From Stephanodiscus triporus (taxonomy: Eukaryota; Bacillariophyta; Thalassiosirophyceae; Thalassiosirales; Thalassiosiraceae), in the NCBI GenBank assembly GCA_036939755.1, contig JALLAZ010000667.1, positions 1 to 12,973 on the forward strand: a DNA stretch of 12,973 nt. The letters run 5' to 3'. The notes under the pieces are model-generated. The model had not been told where the DNA came from. It was given only the letters and a program-made list of their open reading frames with translations, and did not search any database. Shown here one piece after another: positions 1-12,973 of this stretch; the first letter of the stretch is position 1; each line of letters starts with the position of its first letter. The position numbers were made by a program, and so were the translations under genes.

Positions 1-55
1 TACGATATTATTGTGTTGCCTGGATTGGGCTTCTCTTTTCCTCTTTGTCTGGAGG
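1..55. repeat. 55-bp direct repeat, copy 1
   Basis: Bases 1-55 are identical to bases 409-463, starting TACGATATTATTGTG and ending TTTGTCTGGAGG. The copies are 408 bp apart start to start. Just after the identical block both copies carry GCTGTTTGCTT (first copy about 65-75, second about 480-490), separated from the block by unlike sequence, so homology probably extends past a small indel. Copy 1 begins at the window edge and may continue to the left. It is non-coding or part of a decayed mobile element; no terminal inverted repeats or target duplications can be established. Confidence 0.9.
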
Positions 56-1237
56 TTTGTCATTGCTGTTTGCTTCATTTTCGTCATTGTTGTTGTTGTG
101 AGTTTCTTTTTCCAATCATACGGGCAAGTATCATCTCACACAATTCCTCCAATTGAACAGGCACCATCATCATACTTTACCCCTTTCTAACATGTGGATC
201 AAGAAATGCTGCATACAAAAAATTAGGATGGACAAATACGTAGAGAGAGATTAGATAGATATATGAAAACTGCATCTGTGTTGGGGCTGGTCGAAATGAG
301 AAAAAGAAAATGGATGAGAAAATGCTCTGAGCGTGTGTGACTGTGTCCCGATCAGCTAAAAAAGAGAGTTTTAGAGCTTTGCACCTAATATGTACCCTAA
401 ATTAGTAGTACGATATTATTGTGTTGCCTGGATTGGGCTTCTCTTTTCCTCTTTGTCTGGAGGAGGCGGAAGAGGAAAGCTGTTTGCTTGCCTTATTGAT
501 TATTGAGTGTATCATGTGAATGGGGAATCCTCTTTTTTGGTCCCAGACCAATAATTGGTCCCTATGTCTTCTTCTTTTGAGGGACGGCTCCTGCATGTGG
601 ATCTGGGATACTAGAATCTTCCACTATCACTTAGAGTGAGCCTATGCCCCCCTAGCCCCCGCCCCCACCACCCCCCTCCTTCGGAAGTAATCATCCACAC
701 CATCCATAGGGATCCCCAATGTCACGACAACCATTGTGAGGGGAGGAGGGAATCAATGCTCACCCCCCATCAATGCAGCCCCCCTAAGGAAATCACAACA
801 GCCATAATTATCGCAGCTGCAAGAATTGCAATTGCAACTCGCAACCACCATGGCGGCCCTCACAACTATCATGATCACCACAACCACACAACCATTGCCC
901 ATTGCCAGATGAGGACAAGAAGGGTATTGATGCCTCCCACTGTTCAAGGCTACAACAGCAGTGTTGATATCTGCAGTGGTAAGAATGGATCGAGGAGAGG
1001 AAGAGGAGGTGACCCTCCTGTTTCTGTTATATCTTGCCCTCCCGAGCATGCTTTGATGGCAATGTGTCAACTCAATAATGCAGTCATCAAGATCAGCAAT
1101 GGAACATAGTGGTGGACCTCATTGACGCCGTCGAAAACCTTCCACCCCAGACAATCAGGATCTACTCTTGATAGATCAACATACCAGACGATCGTCATTG
1201 GGTCGTACATCGACATCAACAGCAATGTTGTTGATGA
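56..1237. other. Gene-free left flank, possibly decayed mobile DNA
   Basis: Apart from the second 55-bp repeat copy, no convincing gene is visible. Short open frames exist on both strands at 640-1110, but they are His/Cys/Pro-rich low-complexity translations of CA-rich and CCCC-rich DNA and resemble no family I know. A palindrome with 7-bp arms and a 1-nt centre (GACCAAT-A-ATTGGTC) lies at 546-560, flanked by two GGTCCC words (539-544 and 557-562). The region is consistent with old transposon or intergenic DNA. Confidence 0.5.
409..463. repeat. 55-bp direct repeat, copy 2
   Basis: Perfect second copy of bases 1-55. After it the sequence diverges (AGGCGGAAGAGGAAA) before the shared GCTGTTTGCTT. 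The perfect identity in otherwise non-coding, decayed DNA implies either a recent duplication or a recently active repeat family. Confidence 0.9.
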
Positions 1238-1630
1238 CTATTGGAGATGTCGTACAATTGATTCATTTGCAGAAGCGAACTTGTAAGTACTCATTTCCTC
1301 TGCCATGATCCACACAAGCTCGGAATGAATTGTAGGAACTGCTTTGGGTCCGGGACTATTCTTCAAAAGCTTACGCATGTATGGCCACAGGCAAATGTCT
1401 TGGTGGCCATAAGAGTTAACTTCTGGATGGAGAAGCTTGCCAACCTCAACACCCACACCGGTTTCTTCGTGGACCTCTCTTTTGACAGCAAGCAAAAAAC
1501 ACTCGCCATCCTCGACCTTGCCTCCAACGAACTTGAACAGGTCCTAAAGACACTTACCCTTTGCTCTCCTCCCAATTAACTAGGTAGAGACCTTCTCTTT
1601 TTATGACCCAGCACATACAACATCAATCAT
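1238..1630 (-). pseudogene. MutT-like Nudix hydrolase pseudogene (three in-frame stops)
   Basis: Read in one continuous minus-strand frame from ATG (1628-1630) to TAG (1238-1240), this gives 130 codons, the length of bacterial MutT (about 129 aa). A complete Nudix box is present at codons 37-59: GG-KVEDG-E-x7-REVHEETGV, matching G-x5-E-x7-R-E-U-x-E-E-x-G-U. Upstream is the typical RRA...FKFVGGK strand-loop that precedes the box in MutT (RR..EFPGGK), and the C-terminus ends in a MutT-like FASANESIVRHL. Three stops interrupt the first 30 codons: TAA at codon 10 (1601-1603), TAG at codon 17 (1580-1582) and TAG at codon 29 (1544-1546). Spacing to MutT is otherwise preserved, so no frameshift is needed. 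MutT-type Nudix enzymes hydrolyse oxidised or non-canonical NTPs; this copy should be inactive unless the stops are sequence errors, are read through, or an intron removes them. A start after the last stop would have to be non-ATG and would lose the N-terminal strands. Confidence 0.85.
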
Positions 1631-1718
1631 GATTTCTTTCTTTTTGTGAAATTAAAAAACACTCTTTTTATTCTTGCAAACCAAGACACTTCAGTCCTAC
1701 TTACCACCTCCCAATAAA

Positions 1719-2156
1719 ATGTCCACCACCTCATCTCCATCATGGGAGGAGGACTTCAATGATTCGTCTGATGAAGATGACATGGTTGTCGAAGTCAAAG
1801 AATCCGTTGAAAGTGATGTTGACAAAGACTTTGCTGATGACAGCAACAATGGTGACGATAATGACAATGACGATAATGACAATGACGATAACAACAATGA
1901 GGATAACGACAATGACGACAACAATGAAGAAGAAGGCAACGATGACTTAGATGACAATGGCAGTGAATACATCGATCCAAAACAATTCTTACTCACTTTT
2001 AGCGAGAGTGAATTTGACAGACAAATAGAAACATCACTAGACAGAGATAGAAATGCTGAGAGACATATTTTAGTCGACATAACAAATCGCATCCACATCT
2101 ACAATAAGCTGGATGAGATTGGATTGAGAGGAATGCAGTTGGTTTGGAGAATCTAA
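1719..2156 (+). CDS. Hypothetical acidic Asp/Asn-rich protein, 145 aa
   Basis: The ORF starts at an ATG in favourable context (AAAATGTCC) and ends at TAA 2154-2156. The N-terminal half is strongly acidic, with S/D/E-rich stretches and an Asn/Asp tract encoded by a 15-bp tandem repeat at about 1857-1925. The last 60 residues are ordinary composition (IDPKQFLLTFSESEFDRQ onward) and resemble no family I recognise. The +1-shifted frame stays open for about 36 codons past the stop region (GNAVGLENLKTNLNKL and so on), which could mean a frameshift or a missed splice. It sits 88 bp from, and divergent to, the Nudix pseudogene, in the decayed left part of the window, so it may be a remnant of a mobile element or not a gene at all. 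Confidence 0.35.
   Translation: MSTTSSPSWEEDFNDSSDEDDMVVEVKESVESDVDKDFADDSNNGDDNDNDDNDNDDNNNEDNDNDDNNEEEGNDDLDDNGSEYIDPKQFLLTFSESEFDRQIETSLDRDRNAERHILVDITNRIHIYNKLDEIGLRGMQLVWRI
1857..1925 (+). repeat. Imperfect 15-bp tandem repeat coding Asp/Asn
   Basis: About four to five imperfect copies of a unit like GACGATAATGACAAT. The first copies are nearly exact and later ones carry AAC or GAG substitutions. It encodes the D/N tract of the 1719-2156 ORF. Confidence 0.75.
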
Positions 2157-2515
2157 AGACCAACCTCAACAAGCTCACATGCACAATAGACCAAGGAGGG
2201 ATATTTGGGCCTTCCATCTTTTTCGCAAGACGCAAGCAAGGATTATTGACGAACCCATAGTTTGGCATGATTCATCCATCAATTCTGCTTGGGAGCGACT
2301 TGCAGATTCAATACTTGACACAAAATGCCAAAGCAAATTGTTGCAGTTTTAACGAACAGCCTATGCAATGTGAAAGTGGTCAATACAAATATGCATACAT
2401 TCATATTCATATTTTTTTAATAATAACAATTCACTATTTGTGGCGTTGTTTTCGCTGAATGAGTAGGGTATGTGTAATTTGTTTTGACTGAAAAATGATG
2501 GAATACGCAGGCAGA
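2157..2515. other. AT-rich spacer without recognisable gene
   Basis: Between the acidic ORF and the end of the next gene I see no supported gene. The stretch around 2395-2445 is AT-rich (ATTCATATTTTTTTAATAATAA) and could contain 3'-end processing signals for the minus-strand gene ending at 2516 or for the plus-strand ORF ending at 2156. Confidence 0.4.
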
Positions 2516-5500
2516 TTACTCATGAGTTGGCGTTACGAGTTTCATCGGTAACGTGATTTCATCTGGCAACGTCGGAAGGGTAGGAGCATCAATCGGCAAG
2601 TATGGCCCATCCTTGCAATGTTGCACTGCAGTCGTTGTTCTGTCGGGATCACGTAGAGAGAAACAGTCGAGTGCCCTTGCCGCCGCGGCATTCATCGCCT
2701 GTTTCTTGGTTTCTTAATGGTTGGAGGGGGAAAGCATTGCAACAAATAAACTGAGGGAGAGGGGGGGGGGGGGGGGATAAAGGTCAAAAACCTAAGATAT
2801 AAACGAAACTTACTGTACCAGTAGGTGCAGCAACCTGGGACCTCAAGCACTGCATCCAAGCCATCATCAGCACTCCTACAGTCACCACATGCAAAATGCT
2901 CTCCCGTCAAAGGACACGTGAAAACGCATGTAAACTTCTGTGCATGAGACTTGGCGCTGTTTGTCCAGGTGGTGAAATAGGACTTCAACGTTTGGGCCTG
3001 CTCAATTGATAATCCTTTTTTAATGTAAAATTGATACAGCTCTGCCCTGGGGGCTGCATCCATGGAAGTGACATAGGATGGTAATGGCAATGACGATGGG
3101 GCGTTGCCGGACCGTGTCGTACCATCAGGTGATGACCCACTTGAATTATATCCCTTCTTGCTCATCGTCCTCTCTCTTGTTGACGAATCGTCAAAGCATG
3201 GAGCTGACGATAGTGATGGCCGCTCAGAAAACGCGTCCCGAGTAATATCATAGACTTCTTCGTTGGGTCCCTTGTCGACATACGGTGGTACCACCTGCTT
3301 TCCATTTCTAAAACCAGCTGAACTAGAATGGACGGCCGGCGATAGAGATGGCTTATCAACAAAGCTGCTACGCGTGATATCTTCAAATCCTTCTTCCTCT
3401 GATGCTTCTTCTTCTTCCGCGCATTCTGTAGCCCTCCGAAAAGTCGCATCCGTTTCCTCCAATCCAACAGCGAGCCTTTCCTTGTCAAGATGATCCTGTT
3501 CGGCATTCCAAGGCCCCTCTTTTGATTCCGACCTCGTCTGACCCACAACTGCGTCATCGCTTGTATCTTCCTCCGTCGACATATTGACACTGCTTAAACT
3601 TCGCATCAACGCCCTCCGATGACCCTTCTTCATGAAGTACAGATCCTCGTCAATTATCTCCCTCAAAATGTCATTGTTATCAAAACCATCCTCGATCAGA
3701 TGGTGGAAATACGATATGGCATCGTCCTCCTGTAAGTTGGGTAGGTGAGTCAGGAGCCAGTACATCACCTCCTCGTATGCTGGTTGCCGCTCTTCATTTT
3801 CTCCTACTTCCACGTCATCCGCCTCATCCTCCTCCTTCGTCAATAGACCATCATTATTTATTGGACCCGAATCATCGACATCGGACTGCTTGCCGTTCGG
3901 TCTGACCCTCGATGTCGCAATATTCGCATCCCTGACGACCGAGGACGTACGATCCAACGTCGAAAGCGGCGCCCTCGTGATGTCGAACGCATCCTCCATT
4001 CCACCGCTGCTGCCGCCGCCTCTGCCTGCGACCCTGGACGTGCCATCCAACGCGATGTCATAATAATCCCTCACGTTCTTCAACTCGGGGGGGATGTCGC
4101 TGCTGCGCTTGAATTTGGCGCCGCTGAAATTAGACGATACCATGTCGATGTTCGACTTGAACGGGCGGGGCTTGTCCAGATATCGTTGCTGCTGCTGCGA
4201 CGACGACGGCGACGAGGTCGACCAGTTGTTCGTCGTCTTCTTCGTGGAATCCAAATTCCACGAGAAGGAATTGCTGTCGAGGTACTTGTCGGCCTCGGTC
4301 GGGCTGCGTATCGTGGCAGTGACCATGTTCAGATTCCTGACGAACGCGCGCGGCGTGTCTAGGTACAATTCGTCGTCCCGCGCGGCCGGCGAGGCCGTCG
4401 ACGCGCCGTTGTTGACTACGACATTCGACGACGACGACGACGACGACGCGTGGACGGGTCCGCCTCCGTTCATCCTCCAGACGGCGTTGGTCGCCTTCCT
4501 CGTCGCTGACGTCGTCGACGGCTCCGTGGAAAGGTTCGACGAGAATCGATGCACGTCGAGGTATCCCCTCCCGCCGTCCCCCCCGTCGTTCTCCTCCCCG
4601 TATTTTCCCGCGATCTTCCTCGGGATCGGATGACCCAGAAGTCTAGCCCTGTTGGGTGAGAAGTTGTGCGCCACGTCCCTGTGCCCCTCCCCCCCTCCCC
4701 CCCCTCGTCCTTTACCCCCGACGTCTTGCAAGCTCGACGCCACCTGCCCCGACGTCGCGCCGAGACGGCGAGTCGAGCCGGAATTCACCCGCAGCATGAA
4801 CGATTCCCGATCTGTCCCGAAGTGCTGTCGGGTGATGTCGAACGAGTCGCCGTCGCCGGGTACGTCGTCCACCGCCGCAGTAGCCCCGTCGGGACCACGT
4901 TCGACCGCCGACGACGCCGCCGCCGCCGACGACGACGTCGACGTCGTTCGCCCCCCGACGGAATTGACCAGTGTAGACGGACGATCCCTCGGGAACTCCT
5001 TGGTTATGTCGAGCCTCGCCGCCCCCGCCCCCGCCCCCGCCTTCGACGTCGTCGTCGTCGTCGTTCGTCCCACGGCGTTGACCAGGCTGGACGGACGATC
5101 CCTCGGGAACGCCTTCGTGACGTCCAGCGCGGCGGCCGCCGCCGCCGACGACGACGACGCGATCTCCCCGTCCCGCCCGGACGACGACGACGTCGTCGTT
5201 CGTCGTCCGTCGTCGTCGTCGTCCTCCCCCTCCTCCCCCCCCCTGCCGGTCCTACGTCGATCTCGCGTCATCCGTCGGTACAGCGACGACGCCCGGCTGC
5301 CTCCTCCTCCTCTCCCCCCCCCCCCGACGGCCGCGACGTCGTCGTCGTCGTTCGTCCGATCCCCCCCCGTCCAACTCCCCATCGTCGTCCCGGAGGAGGA
5401 GGAGGAGGAACGAGGAGGAGGAGGACGACGGCCGTTCATCTCGGACTTCTCCTCGTCGGGGAAGGCGGACGGGAACGACGACGTCCGGTCGGATCTGCGC

Positions 5501-5877
5501 CCGCGACGACGTCCTGTCCCGCCCCCACCGTCCCGTTCCTCCGGGAAGAGGTTGCGCGTGATGTCGTACGCGGCGGCGGAGGAGGAGGAGGAGGGCGGCG
5601 ACGGCGATGGCGATGGCGATGGCCGACCGCCGTCGACGACGATACGACGGGGGGGGGGACGATCGTCGTCGTCGTCGTCGTCGTCGTCGCGCTCGCGTCC
5701 GAGGAGGGGGGGGAAGAAGGACGACGACGAGGAACGACCACGACGACGATCGTGCATCATCGTCGACTTGGCCGGGAGGAAGGACGACGTGGGCGAGAAC
5801 AGGACAACAACGACGACGACGACGACGACGACGACTGACGTCGCCGGTAAGAGATGACGAGTGTGGACGATCCTCAT
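2516..5877 (-). CDS. SAM-like plus dsRBD-like protein with D-I-T-R motif array and presequence
   Basis: Two exons, complement(join(2516..2712,2814..5877)), give 1086 aa. The start at 5877 is the first ATG of the open frame; the frame stays open upstream without another Met. Residues 1-35 look like a signal peptide: basic/His n-region, V15-V25 core, then SPTSS and Phe33-Leu-Pro, resembling the Phe-containing cleavage site of diatom plastid preproteins. Residues 45-330 are low-complexity S, D, G, R, T and A tracts. About 13 degenerate motifs [FYL]-D-[IV]-T-[RK]-x2-F-x3-[DR]-P-S follow, at about 104, 251, 289, 346, 400, 439, 505, 532, 566, 605, 631, 832 and 876. Residues 699-762 form a SAM-like helical domain (GFDNNDILREI...DEDLYFMKKGHRRALMR). 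Residues about 945-1041 resemble a dsRNA-binding domain: KFTCVFTCPLTGEHFACG strands, then YKTKKQAMNAAAARALDCF, like the KKxAxxxAAxxAL helix. Residues 1042-1086 are a Pro/Thr-rich tail. An RNA-binding or scaffold role, perhaps in the plastid, is inference. It is divergent to NDUFS6 over a 244-bp space. Confidence 0.8.
2713..2813 (-). other. 101-nt GT-AG intron with C16 tract
   Basis: On the minus strand the donor follows TACA (A|GTAAGT) and the acceptor is CATTAAG|AAACC. Splicing joins ...CCTYWY to KTKKQAMNAAAA, opens a 65-codon second exon to TAA at 2516-2518, and creates an uninterrupted dsRBD-like helix. Unspliced reading gives Pro-rich nonsense and a stop at 2692. Within it, 2761-2776 on the plus strand is G16, so the transcript carries C16, lying 47 nt upstream of the acceptor. 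A second candidate acceptor (CCCTCAG) would lead to a premature stop. Confidence 0.8.
4957..5127 (-). repeat. 114-bp tandem duplication inside the motif array
   Basis: Residues 251-269 and 289-307 of the SAM/dsRBD-like protein are near copies (LDVTKAFPRDRPSSLVNAV and LDITKEFPRDRPSTLVNSV), one 38-residue (114-bp) step apart. DNA identity is also high: the word GGACGATCCCTCGGGAA occurs on the plus strand in both copies. This is the youngest visible step in growth of the motif array. Confidence 0.85.
5812..5835 (-). repeat. (GTC)8 microsatellite coding the signal-peptide core
   Basis: The plus strand reads (GAC)8, which is eight GTC codons on the coding strand, followed by two GTT codons and one more GTC. 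Together they encode V15-V25, the whole hydrophobic core of the putative signal peptide. Related GAC/GTC-class tracts at 5662-5688 (D9) and elsewhere encode Asp, Ser, Thr and Arg homopolymers. Confidence 0.9.
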
Positions 5878-6121
5878 CGGGGAGTGGGAGGGGGGTTCCG
5901 TTTCGTCGTTCGTTTGTCTCTTCTCTTCCTCTCCGGGGGGACGAATGGGCGTCGTTGTTCGTAAGTAGTAGTAGGTACCATACCATACGCTCAGCGCCAG
6001 TGGAAGAGTTGCGGCGCGCGGGAAGCACGAAAATATTAATATCGGCGATCGTGGACTCCCGATAAATAAGTACTCACGAAGTGACTCTCGCGTCGCGTCC
6101 GAGCACACAAAACACACCGCA
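5878..6121. promoter_or_regulatory. Shared 244-bp divergent intergenic region (inferred bidirectional promoter)
   Basis: It separates the ATG of the minus-strand SAM/dsRBD-like gene (5877) from the ATG of NDUFS6 (6122), so both 5' ends must lie here. The only standout element is an AT island in GC-rich surroundings, with the palindrome ATATTAATAT at 6033-6042 and GATAAATAAG at 6061-6070. These are 50-90 bp upstream of NDUFS6 and could serve as an initiation region. No canonical TATA box position is assignable. Confidence 0.5.
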
Positions 6122-6816
6122 ATGATCTCCGCCCTCTTCCTCCGACGAGTCGCCGCCGGACGAGGTCGGCATTCCGTCGTCGCCTTCGCCCCGTCCTCCC
6201 ACCACCATCACCGCCACCACGGGAGGAAGGCGATGACGACGAATGCGATCGTTCCGCCGATCGTTCCGGAATCGGTCATGTCCGGGGAGGACAAGACTGT
6301 CAACCGCTTCACGAGGACGGAGAGCATCGTGAGTTTGTTTTCCCCATCTCCCATCCCATCCCATCATCGACTTTTTTCGTGCGCCGTCTTCGTTGCTTGT
6401 TTGTTTGTTTGTTTGTTTGTTTGTTTGTTTGTTTGTGTTTGTCGGATGTATCGTATCCTCGTTCGTCGGACGCTGAAGGCCATCGTCCGTCGTCGCATAT
6501 TATTATATTATTATGACTAACCCCCCTCCCCCCCCATCCTCTCGCCGAAACGTCTGCCCCCCCCCCCCCTCACCCACCCACCCACCCCTCCCAGTACAAA
6601 TTGGGAAAACACCGATCGAACGCCCTGGAGCTCGTGAACGCCGTGCCCGTGATCGAGGTTAGCGGCAACATCGCGGTCTGCGACGGAGGGGGGGGCGCGC
6701 TCGGCCATCCCATCGAGTACATCAAGCTCGACGGACGAAATCACGAGGAGGCGGTCTCGTGCATTTATTGCGGATTGAGGTACAGGATGAAGGACGATCA
6801 TCATCATCACCATTGA
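6122..6816 (+). CDS. NDUFS6: Mitochondrial complex I zinc-binding subunit NDUFS6 (13 kDa)
   Basis: Exons 6122-6328 and 6595-6816 join in phase 0 (ESI|YKLGKHR) to give 142 aa. The C-terminal domain is diagnostic of NDUFS6: AVCDGGGGALGHPIEYIKL followed by SCIYCGLRY. Predicted zinc ligands are Cys98, His107, Cys125 and Cys128 (C-x8-H-x17-C-x2-C). The family protein sits at the base of the NADH-oxidising arm of respiratory complex I on the matrix side and is needed for late assembly. Residues 1-49 contain no acidic residue, are Arg-rich and carry a His-rich run, which fits a mitochondrial targeting presequence. The protein ends in five histidines (DDHHHHH), echoing the short His tail of animal NDUFS6. 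The H-to-C spacing is slightly longer than in mammals, by a small loop insertion. Confidence is high because the splice junction restores the conserved domain. Confidence 0.95.
6329..6594 (+). other. 266-nt GT-AG intron of NDUFS6 with simple repeats
   Basis: The donor is ATC|GTGAGT and the acceptor CTCCCAG|TAC. The intron holds a (GTTT)9 microsatellite (6399-6434), a C13 run (6557-6569) and a CCCACCCACCCACCCC block (6573-6588) just before the acceptor. The coding phase and conserved NDUFS6 sequence on both sides support the junction. Confidence 0.9.
6399..6436. repeat. (GTTT)9 tetranucleotide microsatellite
   Basis: G occurs exactly every four bases from 6399 to 6435, with TTT between, giving nine full units. 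It is intronic in NDUFS6. Confidence 0.95.
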
Positions 6817-7177
6817 GAGATGCCCCGGATGTATCGTCTCTTCGGGGGGGGGGGGGTTCTGGGGGGGAGGCGGAGGAGGAGGAGGCGGCCGTCGGGGGAG
6901 GGTTGGAGGCATTCGATTGTTGTCGTTTGATAAAAATGAGGGGACTGGAAGTTTTAGACCGGACCCTCGGAAAGATGAAAACCAATGAGGCGCGCGATAT
7001 GTGATCGGGTGTACAGTTAATGGGGCCAGAGGCCCCGAGTGGGTTGAAGATAACATCATAATGAAACTACGTTGTTCCTTGATGATAATTCATGTACTCT
7101 ATTGTGGAATTACCGTGCAACCTCTAGAGGTGGAGAGATGTACGTAGTTCGGGATGAATTGACGAATGCAAAAGTTT
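6817..7177. other. 361-bp tail-to-tail spacer with G-runs and a small hairpin
   Basis: This space lies between the convergent stop codons of NDUFS6 and the 668-aa gene, and should contain both 3' UTRs. It begins with G13 (6844-6856), G7 (6861-6867) and purine-rich GGA repeats. A perfect hairpin GGGGCC-AGA-GGCCCC lies at 7022-7036. The remainder has no convincing ORF and no tRNA-like fold that I could identify. Confidence 0.6.
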
Positions 7178-9184
7178 CTAAATTTGACGTGAGAATGCCG
7201 AGGATTTCGTATCGAGGAGGCGGGGCATCGCACGCGCATAGGCTAACGACGTATCGTATTGATTGATGCTGTCGTCGCAGAGAGACGCCCATCGTTGGAG
7301 GGGTTTTACTTGAATTGTGTGCCAAGGGTTCAGAGGATCGACTACCGTCGGATACCCGGTCTTGTCGCCGGGCACGTCTTTTCGGCTGAACATCAGAGCC
7401 GACAAGATGCAGGACACTCGCTTCGCGCTCGACGAATCGTGATGCTCGTGGTCTTGGTCGGATTGGGAGAGGGCAAGGCAAGCGAGGACGACGTCTGCAA
7501 TATCCCCCCATCCCTCCTCGTGCAATCGACCCCCTCCAAACATAGACTCACGGCGCTGACGCTTCGGAATTGGCTCGCCAGTTCTTGTCGCTACTCCCCT
7601 ATCAGCGACTTGTGCGCGATCAGCCGCTATATCGAGAAGAAATCTGGCCCTGCCAGTGATGCACTGGGAAGTGACGGCGCGAAGCAACGAAAGGGCAAGG
7701 ACGTCATCCCCTTCACAGTAAGATGGACTTTTCAGGGCTTCAAGGCCGATGGTAACACGACAGAGCCGAAACAGCAAGTCGTCGGCGAGAATCATCACAT
7801 TCTCGACATCGTGCGTGCTGTCGCATGCACTTCGCAGGAAATGTAACGCATCGTGGAAACAAGAAACAGCAAACCTCGCGTAGGATGACAAGAGTGGAAG
7901 GAAGATAACGTGTACCTCGGGATTGTGTTCTAAACACAAGTTGTCCATCGATTCGGCAGTGCCAACGACCATAGTCATGTGACGGACGACATCTTTCAGC
8001 GCAAACACGATGCTTTCCGAGGCACCCTCGATGACGCCACCATTCTTTTCGCTCTCAATAATATTTCCGCCAATGACCGACTCTGAATTTTCGATCAGAT
8101 GTAATGCCGATTGAATGCTAACGACATGGTAACGAACAATCAAAGTGTGAACACCTTTGGCCTCGTCATCGCTCAAACGTCGAACCTTTTGCTCATCGAC
8201 ACCGTGTGCCCACAATTCGAACAAATCGGCAGTGAACCCATCGAAAGAAACACATCCCATTTCCTCTCTGACAACATTGGCAACATGTTTCAGAAGGTAA
8301 CCGATGAAGTAGCCAATGTGACCAGATGACTCAACGCATTGGCCATTCTGATCGCATACAAAGTAATGCATGAGAATGTGTGCCAACCGAAGAGATTCTT
8401 TCGATGACAAATGCGAAAAAATAGTTCGGCATTCATCTATATCGCCATCGCCACCCTGATCGCACTCGTACATCGCACGCTCGAGATCATACCCCTCGGA
8501 GAGTGAGTTCAAAAGCTTGAGAATCGGATCGAGATTCGATACCGTCCTCGCTGATGTATCCCCGTTGCAAATTTGAACGACCTCGTCGATCATGTCGTAT
8601 ACGTGCCTATCTTCGAGCGCGGGATGAGATACCCGAAAGTGCTTTCGTATAACGTCCGAGGAAATGCAAGCGAAGTTGAAACAAATCCGTTCCATGGACG
8701 AATGATAACTCATCTCCCGTCGCGGATCATCACGAACCTCGTCCGCCGAGAAATCTTCTCGCCGCAATAGCGTCCTCGGGACGGACGTGAGCAATGCCAC
8801 CAGAAAGTCCACGATGTCGTCCTCCCCTCGCTCTGCGAAGCCGCCATCGTCGTCCGGCGGGGAGTCGCAATGACGTCGATGATCGCACAGCGCCGACTCG
8901 AAGTCGGACGCCGCGCTCTCCACGCGAGTCGCCGCGCGCAGGCGCCGCGTCTGCCACGCGCGGCGGCCTCCGCCCGATCGTTCCGACGGGGGCGGCGGGA
9001 GCGATCCGGAGAGGGAGGAAACGTACGTCCCCTCCGACGACGATGCGCCGCCGCCCGCCCCGCCGGCGGCGGCTCGGACGTCATTGTTCAACAAGTCGTT
9101 ATCGCGATGACCGACGTTGACGATCTCATCAATGGAGAGGGCGATATGGATCGCATTTCGAATCTCGATTGAAGCTTCCTCCAT
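7178..9184 (-). CDS. Unrecognised helical protein, 668 aa
   Basis: An intronless ORF from ATG 9182-9184 to the TAG at 7178. The frame is open for 15 codons further upstream but without another ATG. I do not recognise a family. Residues 37-122 are a low-complexity insert (Ala/Gly/Ser, then Pro, Arg/Asp). Residues 123-520 are mostly amphipathic helical sequence rich in Leu, Ile, Val and His, with segments such as LRLAHILMHYFVCDQN and HIGYFIGYLLKHVANVV, suggestive of a helical-repeat scaffold. A short basic KRQRR (541-545) could be a nuclear localisation signal. No catalytic motif, signal peptide or convincing membrane segment is visible. Residues 423-455 resemble intron sequence at their borders (GAG|GTACAC...GAAG), but removing them shifts to a frame that soon stops, so I keep them as coding. 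It shares a 243-bp divergent region with the 2H phosphoesterase gene. Confidence 0.75.
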   Translation of the reverse strand: MEEASIEIRNAIHIALSIDEIVNVGHRDNDLLNNDVRAAAGGAGGGASSSEGTYVSSLSGSLPPPPSERSGGGRRAWQTRRLRAATRVESAASDFESALCDHRRHCDSPPDDDGGFAERGEDDIVDFLVALLTSVPRTLLRREDFSADEVRDDPRREMSYHSSMERICFNFACISSDVIRKHFRVSHPALEDRHVYDMIDEVVQICNGDTSARTVSNLDPILKLLNSLSEGYDLERAMYECDQGGDGDIDECRTIFSHLSSKESLRLAHILMHYFVCDQNGQCVESSGHIGYFIGYLLKHVANVVREEMGCVSFDGFTADLFELWAHGVDEQKVRRLSDDEAKGVHTLIVRYHVVSIQSALHLIENSESVIGGNIIESEKNGGVIEGASESIVFALKDVVRHMTMVVGTAESMDNLCLEHNPEVHVIFLPLLSSYARFAVSCFHDALHFLRSACDSTHDVENVMILADDLLFRLCRVTIGLEALKSPSYCEGDDVLALSLLRAVTSQCITGRARFLLDIAADRAQVADRGVATRTGEPIPKRQRRESMFGGGRLHEEGWGDIADVVLACLALSQSDQDHEHHDSSSAKRVSCILSALMFSRKDVPGDKTGYPTVVDPLNPWHTIQVKPLQRWASLCDDSINQYDTSLAYARAMPRLLDTKSSAFSRQI

Positions 9185-9427
9185 TGTATTTGGGCTGGCG
9201 CAGCGATAATAGTTGGCATAGAAGACCAACCAAAGTGGAAACTGTCTGCTTGCGTCTGGCGCGGAAAATGCTTCTGTACTGGCTCCACGTAGGGATTAGT
9301 ATCGTAGATATCGTCCTGTAGCGCAACCAAAAGATGGAGATAGAAGATGTCATGAAAATGAATGCGGCTCAGAGTTTGCTGCTCTCTCTAGAACCCATGT
9401 ACTGTCTTTATCCATGAATACATCATC
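9185..9427. promoter_or_regulatory. Shared 243-bp divergent intergenic region (inferred bidirectional promoter)
   Basis: It lies between the ATG of the 668-aa minus-strand gene (9184) and the ATG of the 2H phosphoesterase gene (9428), so the 5' UTRs and promoters of both must lie here. I see no clear TATA box or repeated operator-like word. The call rests on gene orientation only. Confidence 0.45.
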
Positions 9428-10570
9428 ATGCCGCAATATATCAGCAACGCAAAATTGCCGCGCTTCCCTTCTCAGATGCTTTTCTGCCTGGCACGTTGTA
9501 ATCATGTTGCAAGTCATCGACTCAGCACGCAAAACAGCAGCCCTCCTCATGTGAGGAGAGTGAGCAACAATCATGGCATCCTAAACAATCAGCAACCGCC
9601 GCTGCAAAGCGACGTTGATCCCCCAAATGACTATCAACATGATGGATCTGGCTCAAAATTTGGTCCAGTACTGCGCAAGGGAAACGATAATGTCGGTAGC
9701 AATGGAAGAGTACGAAATTCCTATCTTAAGATCATCATGAATGATAATGTATTTGACCAACTTCATCATACGGTCTGTCAGATAAGGCATTTATGGGAAG
9801 AGGAAAATAATATAAATGATCACACAAAACAATCAATGTCGACGAAAAAATCACGACGGCAATTACTCATCAAACCGCGATCACTCAATTCATTGCACAT
9901 GACATACTTCTTTGCAGGGACGGTCTTGGAGGAAATGGCATGTGAGGAATTGCAACTTTGGAAAACAATGGTCAAGAAATGCGTGGTGGCGCACAGCAAC
10001 GTATCTCCAGTTGACTACTATCTACGTTTCAAGTCCATCATCGTTTTCCCGCCTTCCCGTTCCAATTTGATTGTGGCGGTTTTTGAAGCTTCTTCTGCAC
10101 TTGAAGAATTGTATGAAAAATTGTGCGAATTGGCGGTGATGGAGAAACAGAGCACAACAGACACGAAGATCGGCAACGATAACTCTATGAGGAATGAAGT
10201 TTTTGTAGAGGAGATGAATGATTGGAGGGCGTACGAGTTTCCATTGCTGCGAGAGCTGACATTAAATCAACAACCACAGCGAAAGCAACATCGATTCCGG
10301 CCGTGGGTTGCCCATGTCACCTTGGCAAACCTTGTGGGAGGATCAAAAGGAGAAGTTAATAGATTGAGCAAATGGTTGGCTGATAAAACACATCAGCTAC
10401 AGTGTGCCGGGGTGAAAAGTAACGGTGAAAATTCGCAACCCTTATCTGTGACTTCGGCCAAACCAAATGGGGCGGATGAAAAAAATATTGCTGTACTGGG
10501 ATTGGAACTGGGTGGGCCAGTTCCTGGACATGCTGATATCGCTTGGGATTTCCCTTTTGGTGAGATATAA
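9428..10570 (+). CDS. 2H phosphoesterase (LigT/ThpR-like RNA cyclic phosphodiesterase family), 380 aa
   Basis: An intronless ORF with ATG in good context (A at -3) and stop TAA 10568-10570. Both signature motifs of the 2H superfamily are present: H-M-T at 157-159 (SLHMTYFFAG) and H-V-T at 296-298 (RPWVAHVTLANL). Between them, FKSIIVFPPSRSNLIVAVF followed by LEELYEKL matches the LigT-type strand and helix that carry the FPxxR element. Family members hydrolyse 2',3'-cyclic phosphate ends or 2'-5' linkages of RNA and related nucleotides; the substrate here cannot be assigned. Residues 1-61 contain no Asp or Glu and are rich in Arg, His, Ser and Asn, which fits a mitochondrial or plastid transit peptide. 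Linkers at about 50-95, 240-262 and 325-352 make it longer than the usual 180-200-aa bacterial enzyme. It converges with ASCC2, with stops 55 bp apart. Confidence 0.85.
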   Translation: MPQYISNAKLPRFPSQMLFCLARCNHVASHRLSTQNSSPPHVRRVSNNHGILNNQQPPLQSDVDPPNDYQHDGSGSKFGPVLRKGNDNVGSNGRVRNSYLKIIMNDNVFDQLHHTVCQIRHLWEEENNINDHTKQSMSTKKSRRQLLIKPRSLNSLHMTYFFAGTVLEEMACEELQLWKTMVKKCVVAHSNVSPVDYYLRFKSIIVFPPSRSNLIVAVFEASSALEELYEKLCELAVMEKQSTTDTKIGNDNSMRNEVFVEEMNDWRAYEFPLLRELTLNQQPQRKQHRFRPWVAHVTLANLVGGSKGEVNRLSKWLADKTHQLQCAGVKSNGENSQPLSVTSAKPNGADEKNIAVLGLELGGPVPGHADIAWDFPFGEI

Positions 10571-10625
10571 TTCACGTGCGCTATATAAGTAGGAGAACTG
10601 AGCGCTTAAACTATAGGAAGTATCC
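10571..10625. other. 55-bp convergent intergenic space
   Basis: This lies between the stop codons of the 2H phosphoesterase and ASCC2 genes. It is too short for two separate 3' UTRs, so the transcripts very probably overlap tail to tail. It contains CACGTG (10573-10578) and TATATAAG (10582-10589), which look promoter-like but are positioned between two 3' ends. Confidence 0.6.
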
Positions 10626-12662
10626 TCATATGACCATACCGCCAGCAGCCTTTTTCGAAGCACGATCTTTTCTATGATGGTTGCCAATCTTGGACTTGTT
10701 GTCATTCTTCCTCCTTTTTTGTAGTTTAGATAAGTCACCATCTCCTGCTTTATTCCGATTGGTGTTGTGTTCACCCTTTGAGTCCGAGTCGCCACCCCGA
10801 CCGCCACTGCCGCCTCTCCCCTCGGTCCCTGCACCTCTAGCTGGAGTGCTAACGCTACCACCCACGGTGCCCCCTCTTCCCTTCTGGCCACCACGTTTGA
10901 TGGGCAAGTACTTTCCGTCAGGACCAATCAATCTTCCGCCCTTTCCTTTATCCGGGCCACGATATTTCGTTCCGTCCCCATCGTCCTCCAGCTCATTGTC
11001 TTGTTCGTTATCAGCCTTGGCTTTGCCATGTCTACCACCTGCACGGTTCGAATTTCTATTGCTATCCCAAAATCTACTCTCAGCATCAATGTCCTTGATT
11101 ATTGTATTGTACTTCCTCCACATCTCCTGCTCATTCTTCGCACCTCCTCTATCATATTTTTGATGAACATTGTGGATATCCACATCGTACAAGCCCTCAT
11201 CCAACCCGCCAATGCCCCCTGCAATCCCTCCGTCATCTCCTATGCCATCATATTGGTCGTCGTAGTCGTCGTCATATTCATCTCGCATTGATTCAACTCG
11301 GTCGTAGTCTGCTGCCTCGTCAGACACGCTTAACCCGCCCAAATTCCTAGAAACATTCTCAATCAAAAACGCCTCTTCTTCTGCCTTGCGTTCCAGGTAT
11401 TTAATATGTTCCTTTTGTATCTTGGCGTGTTCTTTCCCATCATCCTTCGCTGTTGATCCACGATGTAGGTTGACGTTAGCGCTGTAGCGGTCGACTCTAT
11501 CGCGGAGTCTACGAGGAAGATTGGAAGGAATTGTCAGTAGCCGTGGGTGAATATCATTTCTATTTCCACCGTCGGACATATCTAGTAGAGCCTCTAACGT
11601 TCTTTCGACATCATGGCTGTAGCATTTTAGGGCTTCTTCAATGTACCCCTCCCCTAAAGCGGGTAGCACGGATCTTATGTGATCGATTTGAACTTCAGTC
11701 AGACTCTCCGATTTGGGTTGACTGGTGGACTTGACTTGCAAGATGGAAGCTGATTCAACAATGCACGGCTGTGGCACTTTACTTCTGGGTGACGAACGCA
11801 GCATTGCCAAAAGATATTGCAATTGTGGAGGTGGTGAAGCATCTTTTCCTTGAAACTTGGAAGATAGGGTGGCTTGAAACTCGTTTTCCAGATCCAGCAT
11901 ATCTCCTAGAGCACAGTTATATTCTCCTGATAATGATTGAATGTTTTGAATCACCGTCATAATGCTTGATAATTGCACGTCTATATCCTCTTCACTTTTT
12001 CCAGAGCTAATCACAATACCATATAAGAGCATCCTGGACAGGGCTCTCAATATTGATTTTTTCATAAGATCCCCACCGGGTCCATCACCCCTATCTTTCT
12101 TGTTTGATACGTAATCATAAACCCAAGATAAGGACACAAATACCAGTTCCAACTCATATCGCCCTTCCTCGGGAGGGATTGTCAGACAGCAGTATTGACA
12201 TGCATTCACAGAGGAGATGTATATGCCACATAATGCCTCAGTCGCTTCAATGATATCATCCCACGAAATGATAGAAGCCGTGGGGTGAGATTTCGCAATC
12301 ATGGAACGGATTGCGGAAATAGCGGGAGAGGGCGGCGAAGGTGCTGACGCTGCAAACGAGGCCACCATCGATGCATAGGAGAGGTGAAGATTATGAAGTA
12401 ACACGTTGTGCACATATTTTCTGGGAAGTGTAGCCACCATGATGTCAAATGCGTCGATGAGAGCAACGACGCGGACATCGTTGCTGCTTCTCGAATGGCA
12501 CGAGTATAGAACCCGCCCGATGCGATAGAGAGTGATCGACGATGGCAGCTGGTTTTTTAGAAAACTGTTACTGCTTGGTTTTGGGGCGACAGCTTGGGCT
12601 TCGAAAGACCTCGCAACCTCCGCAGCGAGGGATCTTATTTCCTCGTCGGCGAAACTCTTCAT
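10626..12662 (-). CDS. ASCC2: ASCC2 homologue (CUE-domain subunit of ASCC/RQT complex), 678 aa
   Basis: An intronless ORF. An in-frame TAA lies three codons before the ATG at 12660-12662, and A is at -3. A CUE domain spans residues 322-363 (IRSVLPALGEGYIEEALKCY...LEALLDM), closely matching the VxxLLPDLGEGFI-type CUE of ASCC2, which binds ubiquitin chains. Residues 461-473 (DEYDDDYDDQYDG) are the acidic YDD signature that follows it in ASCC2, and the C-terminal RRKNDNKSKIGNHHRKDRASKK matches the conserved basic end. Residues 1-300 are helical and correspond to the ASCC3-binding part, though about 100-150 residues shorter before the CUE domain than in human, so an upstream exon cannot be excluded. 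Residues 565-640 are Gly/Arg/Lys-rich. The family protein links ubiquitinated stalled ribosomes to the ASCC3 helicase in ribosome quality control, and also acts in alkylation-damage repair. It is cytosolic or nuclear, with no targeting signal seen. Confidence 0.9.
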   Translation of the reverse strand: MKSFADEEIRSLAAEVARSFEAQAVAPKPSSNSFLKNQLPSSITLYRIGRVLYSCHSRSSNDVRVVALIDAFDIMVATLPRKYVHNVLLHNLHLSYASMVASFAASAPSPPSPAISAIRSMIAKSHPTASIISWDDIIEATEALCGIYISSVNACQYCCLTIPPEEGRYELELVFVSLSWVYDYVSNKKDRGDGPGGDLMKKSILRALSRMLLYGIVISSGKSEEDIDVQLSSIMTVIQNIQSLSGEYNCALGDMLDLENEFQATLSSKFQGKDASPPPQLQYLLAMLRSSPRSKVPQPCIVESASILQVKSTSQPKSESLTEVQIDHIRSVLPALGEGYIEEALKCYSHDVERTLEALLDMSDGGNRNDIHPRLLTIPSNLPRRLRDRVDRYSANVNLHRGSTAKDDGKEHAKIQKEHIKYLERKAEEEAFLIENVSRNLGGLSVSDEAADYDRVESMRDEYDDDYDDQYDGIGDDGGIAGGIGGLDEGLYDVDIHNVHQKYDRGGAKNEQEMWRKYNTIIKDIDAESRFWDSNRNSNRAGGRHGKAKADNEQDNELEDDGDGTKYRGPDKGKGGRLIGPDGKYLPIKRGGQKGRGGTVGGSVSTPARGAGTEGRGGSGGRGGDSDSKGEHNTNRNKAGDGDLSKLQKRRKNDNKSKIGNHHRKDRASKKAAGGMVI

Positions 12663-12973
12663 TGTAATATTTTATGGTTTTACTTCTCTCTCCCCATATG
12701 CAGCCTATGCCAGTTTGTGGTACATATTATTTCCGCCGATCCGCGCCTGCTGCTTGTGTGGTGAGTGCTTAAATAATGGCATTCATAACCTGTCGGCGCC
12801 CTCTTCCGTGGAGGGTACAATCGGTCGAAGGGGTGTTATCTTGTGTATGTGGCAGACGCGTCAAAAAGATACCAATTCCTACATGAAAAGCTGCAGAGTT
12901 TCTCTCTCCCCACACCGAGAGAGCAGCGGAAATAGAGTTAAAAAACAAACTAGAGAGAGAACCCCGTCATGCT
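12663..12973. other. 5' flank of ASCC2, no gene seen
   Basis: The last 311 bp hold the promoter or 5' UTR of ASCC2 and no supported ORF. A short inverted repeat CTCTCTC (12902-12908) and GAGAGAG (12917-12923) with an 8-nt gap lies near the right edge, followed by another GAGAGAG run at about 12953-12960. A divergent gene could start just beyond the window. Confidence 0.5.

Follow-up and report, generated by a model that had tools for sequence, protein, structure and literature searches.

In Bicaudal-C, the SAM domain self-polymerises and concentrates bound mRNA in cytoplasmic granules (PMC10513324), and in Arabidopsis organelles TRIC1 depends on a SAM oligomer for RNA binding (PMC11063897). 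EPYC1 and PYCO1 are disordered plastid proteins along which short stickers recur (PMC10288592), and the linkers of different algae share no sequence homology with each other (PMC13159521). Here, we analyzed a window of 12,973 nucleotides from the diatom Stephanodiscus triporus (assembly GCA_036939755.1, contig JALLAZ010000667.1, positions 1 to 12,973) and describe one gene in it, 2516..5877 on the minus strand, whose product is hereafter the focal protein, against which all relatives were compared. Computation supports an architecture consisting of a leader, a disordered chain of motifs, a SAM fold and a divergent end resembling a double-stranded RNA-binding domain (dsRBD), in a Thalassiosirales family. 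Little is known of the organisers of RNA or of the pyrenoid matrix in the plastids of centric diatoms.

Results

The focal protein contains 13 copies of a short, Asp-centred motif, D-[IVTK]-[TP]-[RKQ]-x(1,2)-F (D-I-T-R motif; Table 1), for which the consensus across the family is FDITRDxFPDRPSLSSA. A position-specific scoring matrix (PSSM) was built from 100 partly redundant sites in relatives P0003-P0022, a set that excludes the focal protein itself, P0023 and two close sisters. It detected eight sites of at least 8 bits in the focal protein, against a mean of 0.025 and a maximum of 1 in 200 shuffles. The diverged YLDxPRxF forms have low PSSM scores, yet they line up in the alignment. Counting only rows with a residue at the position, in a 22-row alignment that includes the focal protein, the anchor Asp/Asn is kept in 20/21, 15/15, 16/16, 18/20, 14/15, 15/15 and 16/20 rows for motifs 1-7, and in 19/20, 20/20, 18/20, 16/20, 17/19 and 17/17 rows for motifs 8-13. 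The alignment procedure itself favours the lining-up of motif columns, and the linkers served as the control. In 12 relatives, hand-picked from the 21 others in the alignment after nine rows from other lines or near-duplicates were dropped, identity to the focal protein is 0.55 in motif columns versus 0.23 in linkers, and 0.81 for anchor Asp versus 0.21 for other Asp residues. The preliminary description of this DNA had proposed about 13 D-I-T-R motifs grading into YLDxPRxF, and the PSSM, the shuffles, the alignment and the linker control all bear this out. It had named a lack of conserved motif spacing in relatives as grounds for refutation; this did not refute it, as the motifs keep their order among relatives, although linker lengths vary.

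A tandem duplication of 114 bp contains motifs 2 and 3, which suggests a way in which the array grows. Relatives also have in common the short segments SEMN, VNTGT, LSTT and WxxEQN, the last appearing as WIAEQN within helix 654-699 of the P0004 model, where the predicted local distance difference test score (pLDDT) is about 80-90. A long region bearing the motifs is predicted to be disordered, as modelled in an ortholog, and the first 600 residues of the focal protein contain many R/S/D/G runs.

The SAM domain was placed at residues 700-761 by hidden Markov model (HMM), in agreement with the 699-762 proposed before. Its predicted structure (pLDDT 87) matches solved SAM structures and forms the five-helix bundle of PF00536, and profile comparison with the PDB retrieved ANKS1B and Caskin chains at E about 4e-6 to 7e-6. 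The whole focal protein has no Pfam match at E<=1; the SAM domain of P0024 exceeds the Pfam cut-off (30.5 vs 23 bits). Among 20 family SAMs scanned with Pfam, seven matched SAM_1 (best 1.1e-3) and ten matched DEP (best 2.9e-3). The family alignment displays an acidic mid-loop and a basic KKGHRRAL end-helix, charges that are only suggestive of head-to-tail polymerisation through these two surfaces.

Toward the C-terminus, the HMM delimits a dsRBD-like domain at residues 940-1041, close to the 945-1041 given earlier. The model of the ortholog P0004 shows helices at 804-813 and 818-828, strands at 845-848, 855-858 and 873-876, and a helix at 879-894, with moderate confidence (pLDDT 42-85 by blocks of ten). 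Pfam dsrm matches were obtained in eight of nine excised domains (the focal protein and eight relatives), spanning most of the profile in P0009, P0006 and P0017; the excised P0017 domain scores 24.1 bits, above a cut-off of 23 that is meant for whole proteins rather than excised domains. dsRBDs contact RNA through a GPxH loop and the helix-2 sequence KKxAK. The loop His is present in 17/19 sequences (literally GPSH in P0017 and P0032, absent from P0025 and P0026), and the helix-2 KK is kept in 9/10. This domain is probably a divergent dsRBD. The outcome in which neither fold would be predicted did not arise, since the SAM fold is predicted well and the dsRBD fold moderately.

Several results weigh against this assignment of the two domains. 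By E-value, the top PDB matches to the SAM region are protein A three-helix scaffolds, and Foldseek with the SAM model ranks NusA first, with no row reaching E 0.001. For dsrm, the excised domain of the focal protein reaches 18 bits against the same cut-off of 23, six of the eight relatives' domains score 11.4-17.5 and one is unmatched, and whole P0017 and P0032 each score 19.4 bits. Met replaces the third Lys of KKxAK, the dsRBD-like region has an isoelectric point (pI) of 6.1, and hhalign against seven dsRBD pieces aligned helix 2 only, with a probability of 17. The domain profile matched no dsRBD in the PDB; Foldseek with the whole, long P0004 model also found none, a search that is uninformative for the domain itself. 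Finally, 21 of the 41 family sequences have no dsRBD-like domain, though many of these are partial models. The earlier dsRBD-like assignment is probable, and its limits agree with the HMM; the domain is divergent and falls below the cut-off in the focal protein.

The earlier coding span is exact once a GT-AG intron, which interrupts the dsRBD-like domain, is removed, giving a product of 1086 residues. Of 19 dsRBD-like sequences, nine (P0001, P0002, P0007, P0010, P0011, P0015, P0016, P0025 and P0026) stop or go off course immediately behind WYS[KE], at the intron site, and the other ten, including the focal protein, run on through helix 2 (K[KN]x[AS]M); P0005 has extra residues inserted exactly at that point. 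Because the relatives' gene models break at the same point, the intron position is supported.

The plastid-type leader proposed for this protein is likewise borne out by inspection. A hydrophobic signal peptide is followed by a TSS/FLPAKS site with Phe33 at +1 and then by an S/R-rich transit part; by eye, these correspond to the signal peptide, ASAFAP-like Phe+1 site and S/T/R-rich transit part of diatom bipartite presequences, in which Phe at +1 is a known mark of plastid import (PMC4329603). A hydrophobic N-terminus with a [small]-Phe site was seen by eye in 13 of 40 relatives, at sites such as VHSF, VQSF, VQTF, VQPF, VAAF, THSF, VYGF and ADGF. P0021 has ANAF after a weakly hydrophobic start, and P0015 has a hydrophobic stretch without Phe. 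Most remaining relatives start without a hydrophobic stretch, may be incomplete models, and were counted neither for nor against a leader.

Table 1. Features of the focal gene and its product (positions in the window; D numbers give the anchor Asp)
Feature	Position	Strand	Basis
Focal gene, coding span including stop	2516..5877	-	Splice and translation, 1086 residues
Exon 1	5877-2814	-	Splice and translation
Intron, GT...AG	2813-2713	-	Splice and translation; junction kept in relatives
Exon 2	2712-2516	-	Splice and translation
Bipartite plastid-type presequence, residues 1-60 (end approximate)	5698..5877	-	Sequence inspection; Phe+1 rule (PMC4329603)
Motif 1 YDITRNLFPEE (D105)	5530..5568	-	PSSM and alignment
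Conserved segment SAFxxxEKSEMNxRxPPP, about residues 137-154	5416..5469	-	Relatives' consensus
114-bp tandem duplication holding motifs 2 and 3	4915-5147	-	Repeat search
Motif 2 LDVTKAFPRDRPS (D252)	5089..5127	-	PSSM and alignment; inside tandem duplication
Motif 3 LDITKEFPRDRPS (D290)	4975..5013	-	PSSM and alignment; inside tandem duplication
Motif 4 FDITRQHFGTDRE (D347)	4804..4842	-	PSSM and alignment
Motif 5 RDVAHNFSPNRAR (D401)	4642..4680	-	PSSM and alignment
Motif 6 (Y)LDVHRFSSNLS (D441)	4522..4560	-	Alignment
Motif 7 (Y)LDTPRAFVRNLNM (D507)	4324..4362	-	Alignment
Motif 8 (Y)LDSNSFSWNLDS (D534)	4243..4281	-	Alignment
Motif 9 (Y)LDKPRPFKSNIDM (D568)	4141..4179	-	Alignment
Motif 10 YDIALDGTSR (D607), weak in focal protein (1.5 bits)	4024..4062	-	Asp kept in 18/20 rows
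Motif 11 FDITRAPLSTLDR (D632)	3949..3987	-	PSSM and alignment
SAM domain, residues 700-761	3595..3780	-	HMM, predicted structure, profile matches
Motif 12 EDITRSSFVDKPS (D833)	3346..3384	-	PSSM and alignment
Motif 13 YDITRDAFSERPS (D877)	3214..3252	-	PSSM and alignment
dsRBD-like domain, residues 940-1041, split by intron 2813-2713	2654..3060	-	HMM, Pfam dsrm, model

Family searches with residues 560-1086, with part of P0008 and with a profile returned 23, 17 and 26 proteins, in overlapping sets. The combined set, P0001-P0041 without the translated piece P0031, holds 40 relatives and, with the focal protein, 41 sequences; an HMM scan of these found the SAM domain in 39, the dsRBD-like domain in 20 and both in 19. 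Named members come from Thalassiosira sp. AJA248-18, T. exigua, T. profunda, T. oceanica and Cyclostephanos tholiformis, and a further member, an ortholog, bears a CCRYP_ locus tag (CCRYP_011308), which we take to denote Cyclotella cryptica. All named members are Thalassiosirales, an order that includes Cyclostephanos, Thalassiosira and Cyclotella. Several species of Thalassiosira carry the family, as does, judging from its locus tag, Cyclotella cryptica. Because each search scored about 8000 candidates and an organism was named for a minority of hits, restriction to these taxa is not implied. Literature searches retrieved no paper with any of the locus tags of six relatives and, judged by titles and the openings of abstracts, no such protein in work on SAM domains with diatom, plastid, chloroplast or pyrenoid, a coverage that leaves outside the T. 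pseudonana pyrenoid proteome, which could mention a member. In line with the preliminary description, the combination of parts and the motif array are apparently undescribed, although all the parts taken singly belong to known kinds.

Three further SAM frames of this type occur in the S. triporus genome. The first, in C376, spans 1222 codons, encodes two SAM domains together with D-I-T-R motifs and is 55% identical to Cyclostephanos P0022. The second, in C526 (L040), is a 494-codon frame with two D-I-T-R motifs, a PDZ-like stretch and a SAM domain; it shares 73% identity with Cyclostephanos P0027 and lies directly downstream of kinase-like frames. The third, in C547, is a 188-codon frame with a SAM domain and without the motif. 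P0028-P0030 join a kinase-like part, D-I-T-R and SAM in one protein, and within the C526/P0027-P0030 line a PDZ match below threshold was obtained for one member and a kinase domain match for another. P0029 exceeds the Pfam Pkinase cut-off but carries VVHRKLNPSN and NFG in place of the HRD and DFG of active kinases, and so is probably a pseudokinase. As read from the sequences, the motif vocabulary is common to at least three lines of SAM proteins.

Other carriers of one of these parts were also observed. P0023 (1686 residues) has four dsRBD-like copies and weak PPR matches, and in C24:18000-22500 of the S. triporus genome (L041) a 470-codon frame (1392-2801, minus strand) has two dsRBD-like copies; searching the genome for SAM domains yielded no match at this frame. 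In C526, TEGLTAEEAEGVRNARLDDA units recur in the frame upstream. P0033 (T. oceanica THAOC_25079) combines a YGGT protein with a double-SAM member; its inner CAAFAPP leader suggests that the gene model has joined two neighbouring genes, the first leader being part of the merged YGGT gene. In C1041 (L044), FDITKPTFDLLSLRP occurs once toward the N-terminus of a 525-codon frame, which may be chance.

Elsewhere in the window, a 678-codon frame at 10627-12662 (minus strand) matches CUE below threshold (20 vs 21.1 bits) and has an R/G-rich tail, features reminiscent of ASCC2. At 9428-10570 (plus strand), a 380-codon frame weakly matches the 2'-5' RNA ligase superfamily (19.6 vs 27 bits); a 2H-phosphoesterase-like protein next to an ASCC2-like gene is reminiscent of the ASCC1/ASCC2 pair. 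The 683-codon frame at 7179-9229 (minus strand) has no Pfam match at E<=1. Head-to-head with the focal gene, a short frame from 6122 onward (plus strand) starts MISALFLRRVAAGRGRHSVVAFAPSS with an AFAP-like site and is perhaps a first exon. Within a frame at 1674-2156 (plus strand), an acidic stretch rich in N and D is encoded by a tandem repeat of 15 bp at 1853-1922.

Discussion

Our preferred explanation, held tentatively, is that the focal protein is a nuclear-encoded, stroma-targeted multivalent scaffold that self-associates through SAM, holds a partner by its motifs and holds RNA by its C-terminus. The protein would sit in the stroma as a flexible chain. Its SAM domain may self-associate through the acidic mid-loop and the basic KKGHRRAL end-helix, and it may likewise link up with SAM paralogs encoded in this genome; the D-I-T-R motifs would act as stickers that bind one abundant plastid partner or a small number of partners. 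Structured plastid RNA (rRNA, an intron or mRNA) may be held at the dsRBD-like end, so that the chain would nucleate a plastid RNA-protein assembly of Bicaudal-C-like design. By this analogy, an RNA-granule scaffold is a reasonable reading of the design. If true, a eukaryotic granule design, in which a self-associating SAM domain, an RNA-binding domain and multivalent motifs are combined, would have moved into a secondary plastid. We regard as unlikely, yet worth stating, a wider form in which three scaffold lines (SAM with dsRBD-like domain, long double-SAM proteins, and kinase-like proteins with SAM) build a Thalassiosirales plastid condensate, where shared stickers and interlocking SAMs would yield a body resembling a ribonucleoprotein granule, either RNA-containing or pyrenoid-linked.

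Whether the C-terminus holds RNA separates this scaffold from a protein-only one, in which the dsRBD-like domain would be a degenerate protein-interaction domain and the chain and its SAM paralogs would organise an enzyme or membrane complex. The sub-cut-off dsrm scores of the focal protein and of all excised domains but one point that way, as do the loss of the third Lys, the missing loop His of P0025 and P0026, the several members that appear to have no dsRBD-like domain, and the PDZ and kinase matches in the paralog line. However, the conservation of the loop His and KK at the canonical RNA-contact positions, the above-threshold domain of P0017 and the fourfold occurrence of the same domain in the PPR-like P0023 argue for RNA, and we consider the protein-only scaffold rather unlikely. 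An ordinary, drifting low-complexity plastid protein without any scaffold role is very improbable and already disfavoured: the composition of the first 600 residues and the fast evolution of the linkers (0.23 identity) would suit it, but the motifs and both domains are selectively conserved relative to those linkers.

A component of the pyrenoid of centric diatoms, whose motifs would bind Rubisco or another pyrenoid protein, whose SAM would crosslink chains and which would reside with the kinase-like paralog, is in our judgement unlikely. The plastid leader fits such a role, as do the repeated stickers on a disordered chain, which is the EPYC1/PYCO1 design (PMC10288592), and the absence of mutual homology among the linkers of different algae (PMC13159521) is compatible with it. 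The motif also occurs in the kinase-like paralog, which may be compared with KEY1 carrying a Rubisco-binding motif in Chlamydomonas (PMC13086578). However, there is no KWSP motif in the sequence read, the dsRBD-like domain would have no obvious role there, and P0029, with HRK in its catalytic loop and NFG, probably has no kinase activity. Known Rubisco linkers are basic, whereas the focal protein is acidic (pI 5.35 for the whole, 6.45 for residues 39-690), which weakens the linker reading and leaves it based on design.

Returning to the stromal RNA-holding scaffold, its individual parts resemble several known systems in different ways. The SAM fold is that of CASKIN, ANKS, Eph and SHIP2 (PF00536), to which the sequence profile also points through its ANKS1B and Caskin matches; these are metazoan signalling proteins of unrelated architecture. 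The C-terminal domain is like PF00035 in predicted element order, GPxH/SH loop, helix-2 KK and the AAA signature of the last helix, but differs in the focal protein's score below the cut-off, its Met in place of the third Lys and a variable insert before the last strand. TRIC1/TRIC2 are SAM proteins of mitochondrial and chloroplast tRNA import in Arabidopsis; to our knowledge, they are membrane PRAT proteins without a motif array or dsRBD. PYCO1 and EPYC1 resemble the focal protein in bearing a series of short stickers along a disordered chain in the plastid; the repeats of a Rubisco linker are found here, but the sticker is different and the pI of 5.35 departs from the basic character of linkers, and we know of no SAM or dsRBD in either protein. 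The Chlamydomonas pyrenoid protein KEY1, a kinase that shares the sticker of a condensate scaffold (PMC13086578), may be set beside the kinase-like SAM paralogs P0027-P0030, but KEY1 is active, whereas P0029 reads HRK/NFG and carries a SAM domain. Bicaudal-C/BICC1 differs in being cytoplasmic and in using KH rather than dsRBD-like domains, the whole focal protein having no Pfam match, KH included, at E<=1; we also know of no D-I-T-R array in Bicaudal-C. Nevertheless, in joining RNA-binding domains, a disordered chain and a SAM domain, Bicaudal-C offers by analogy the closest published design known to us for this putative diatom plastid protein.

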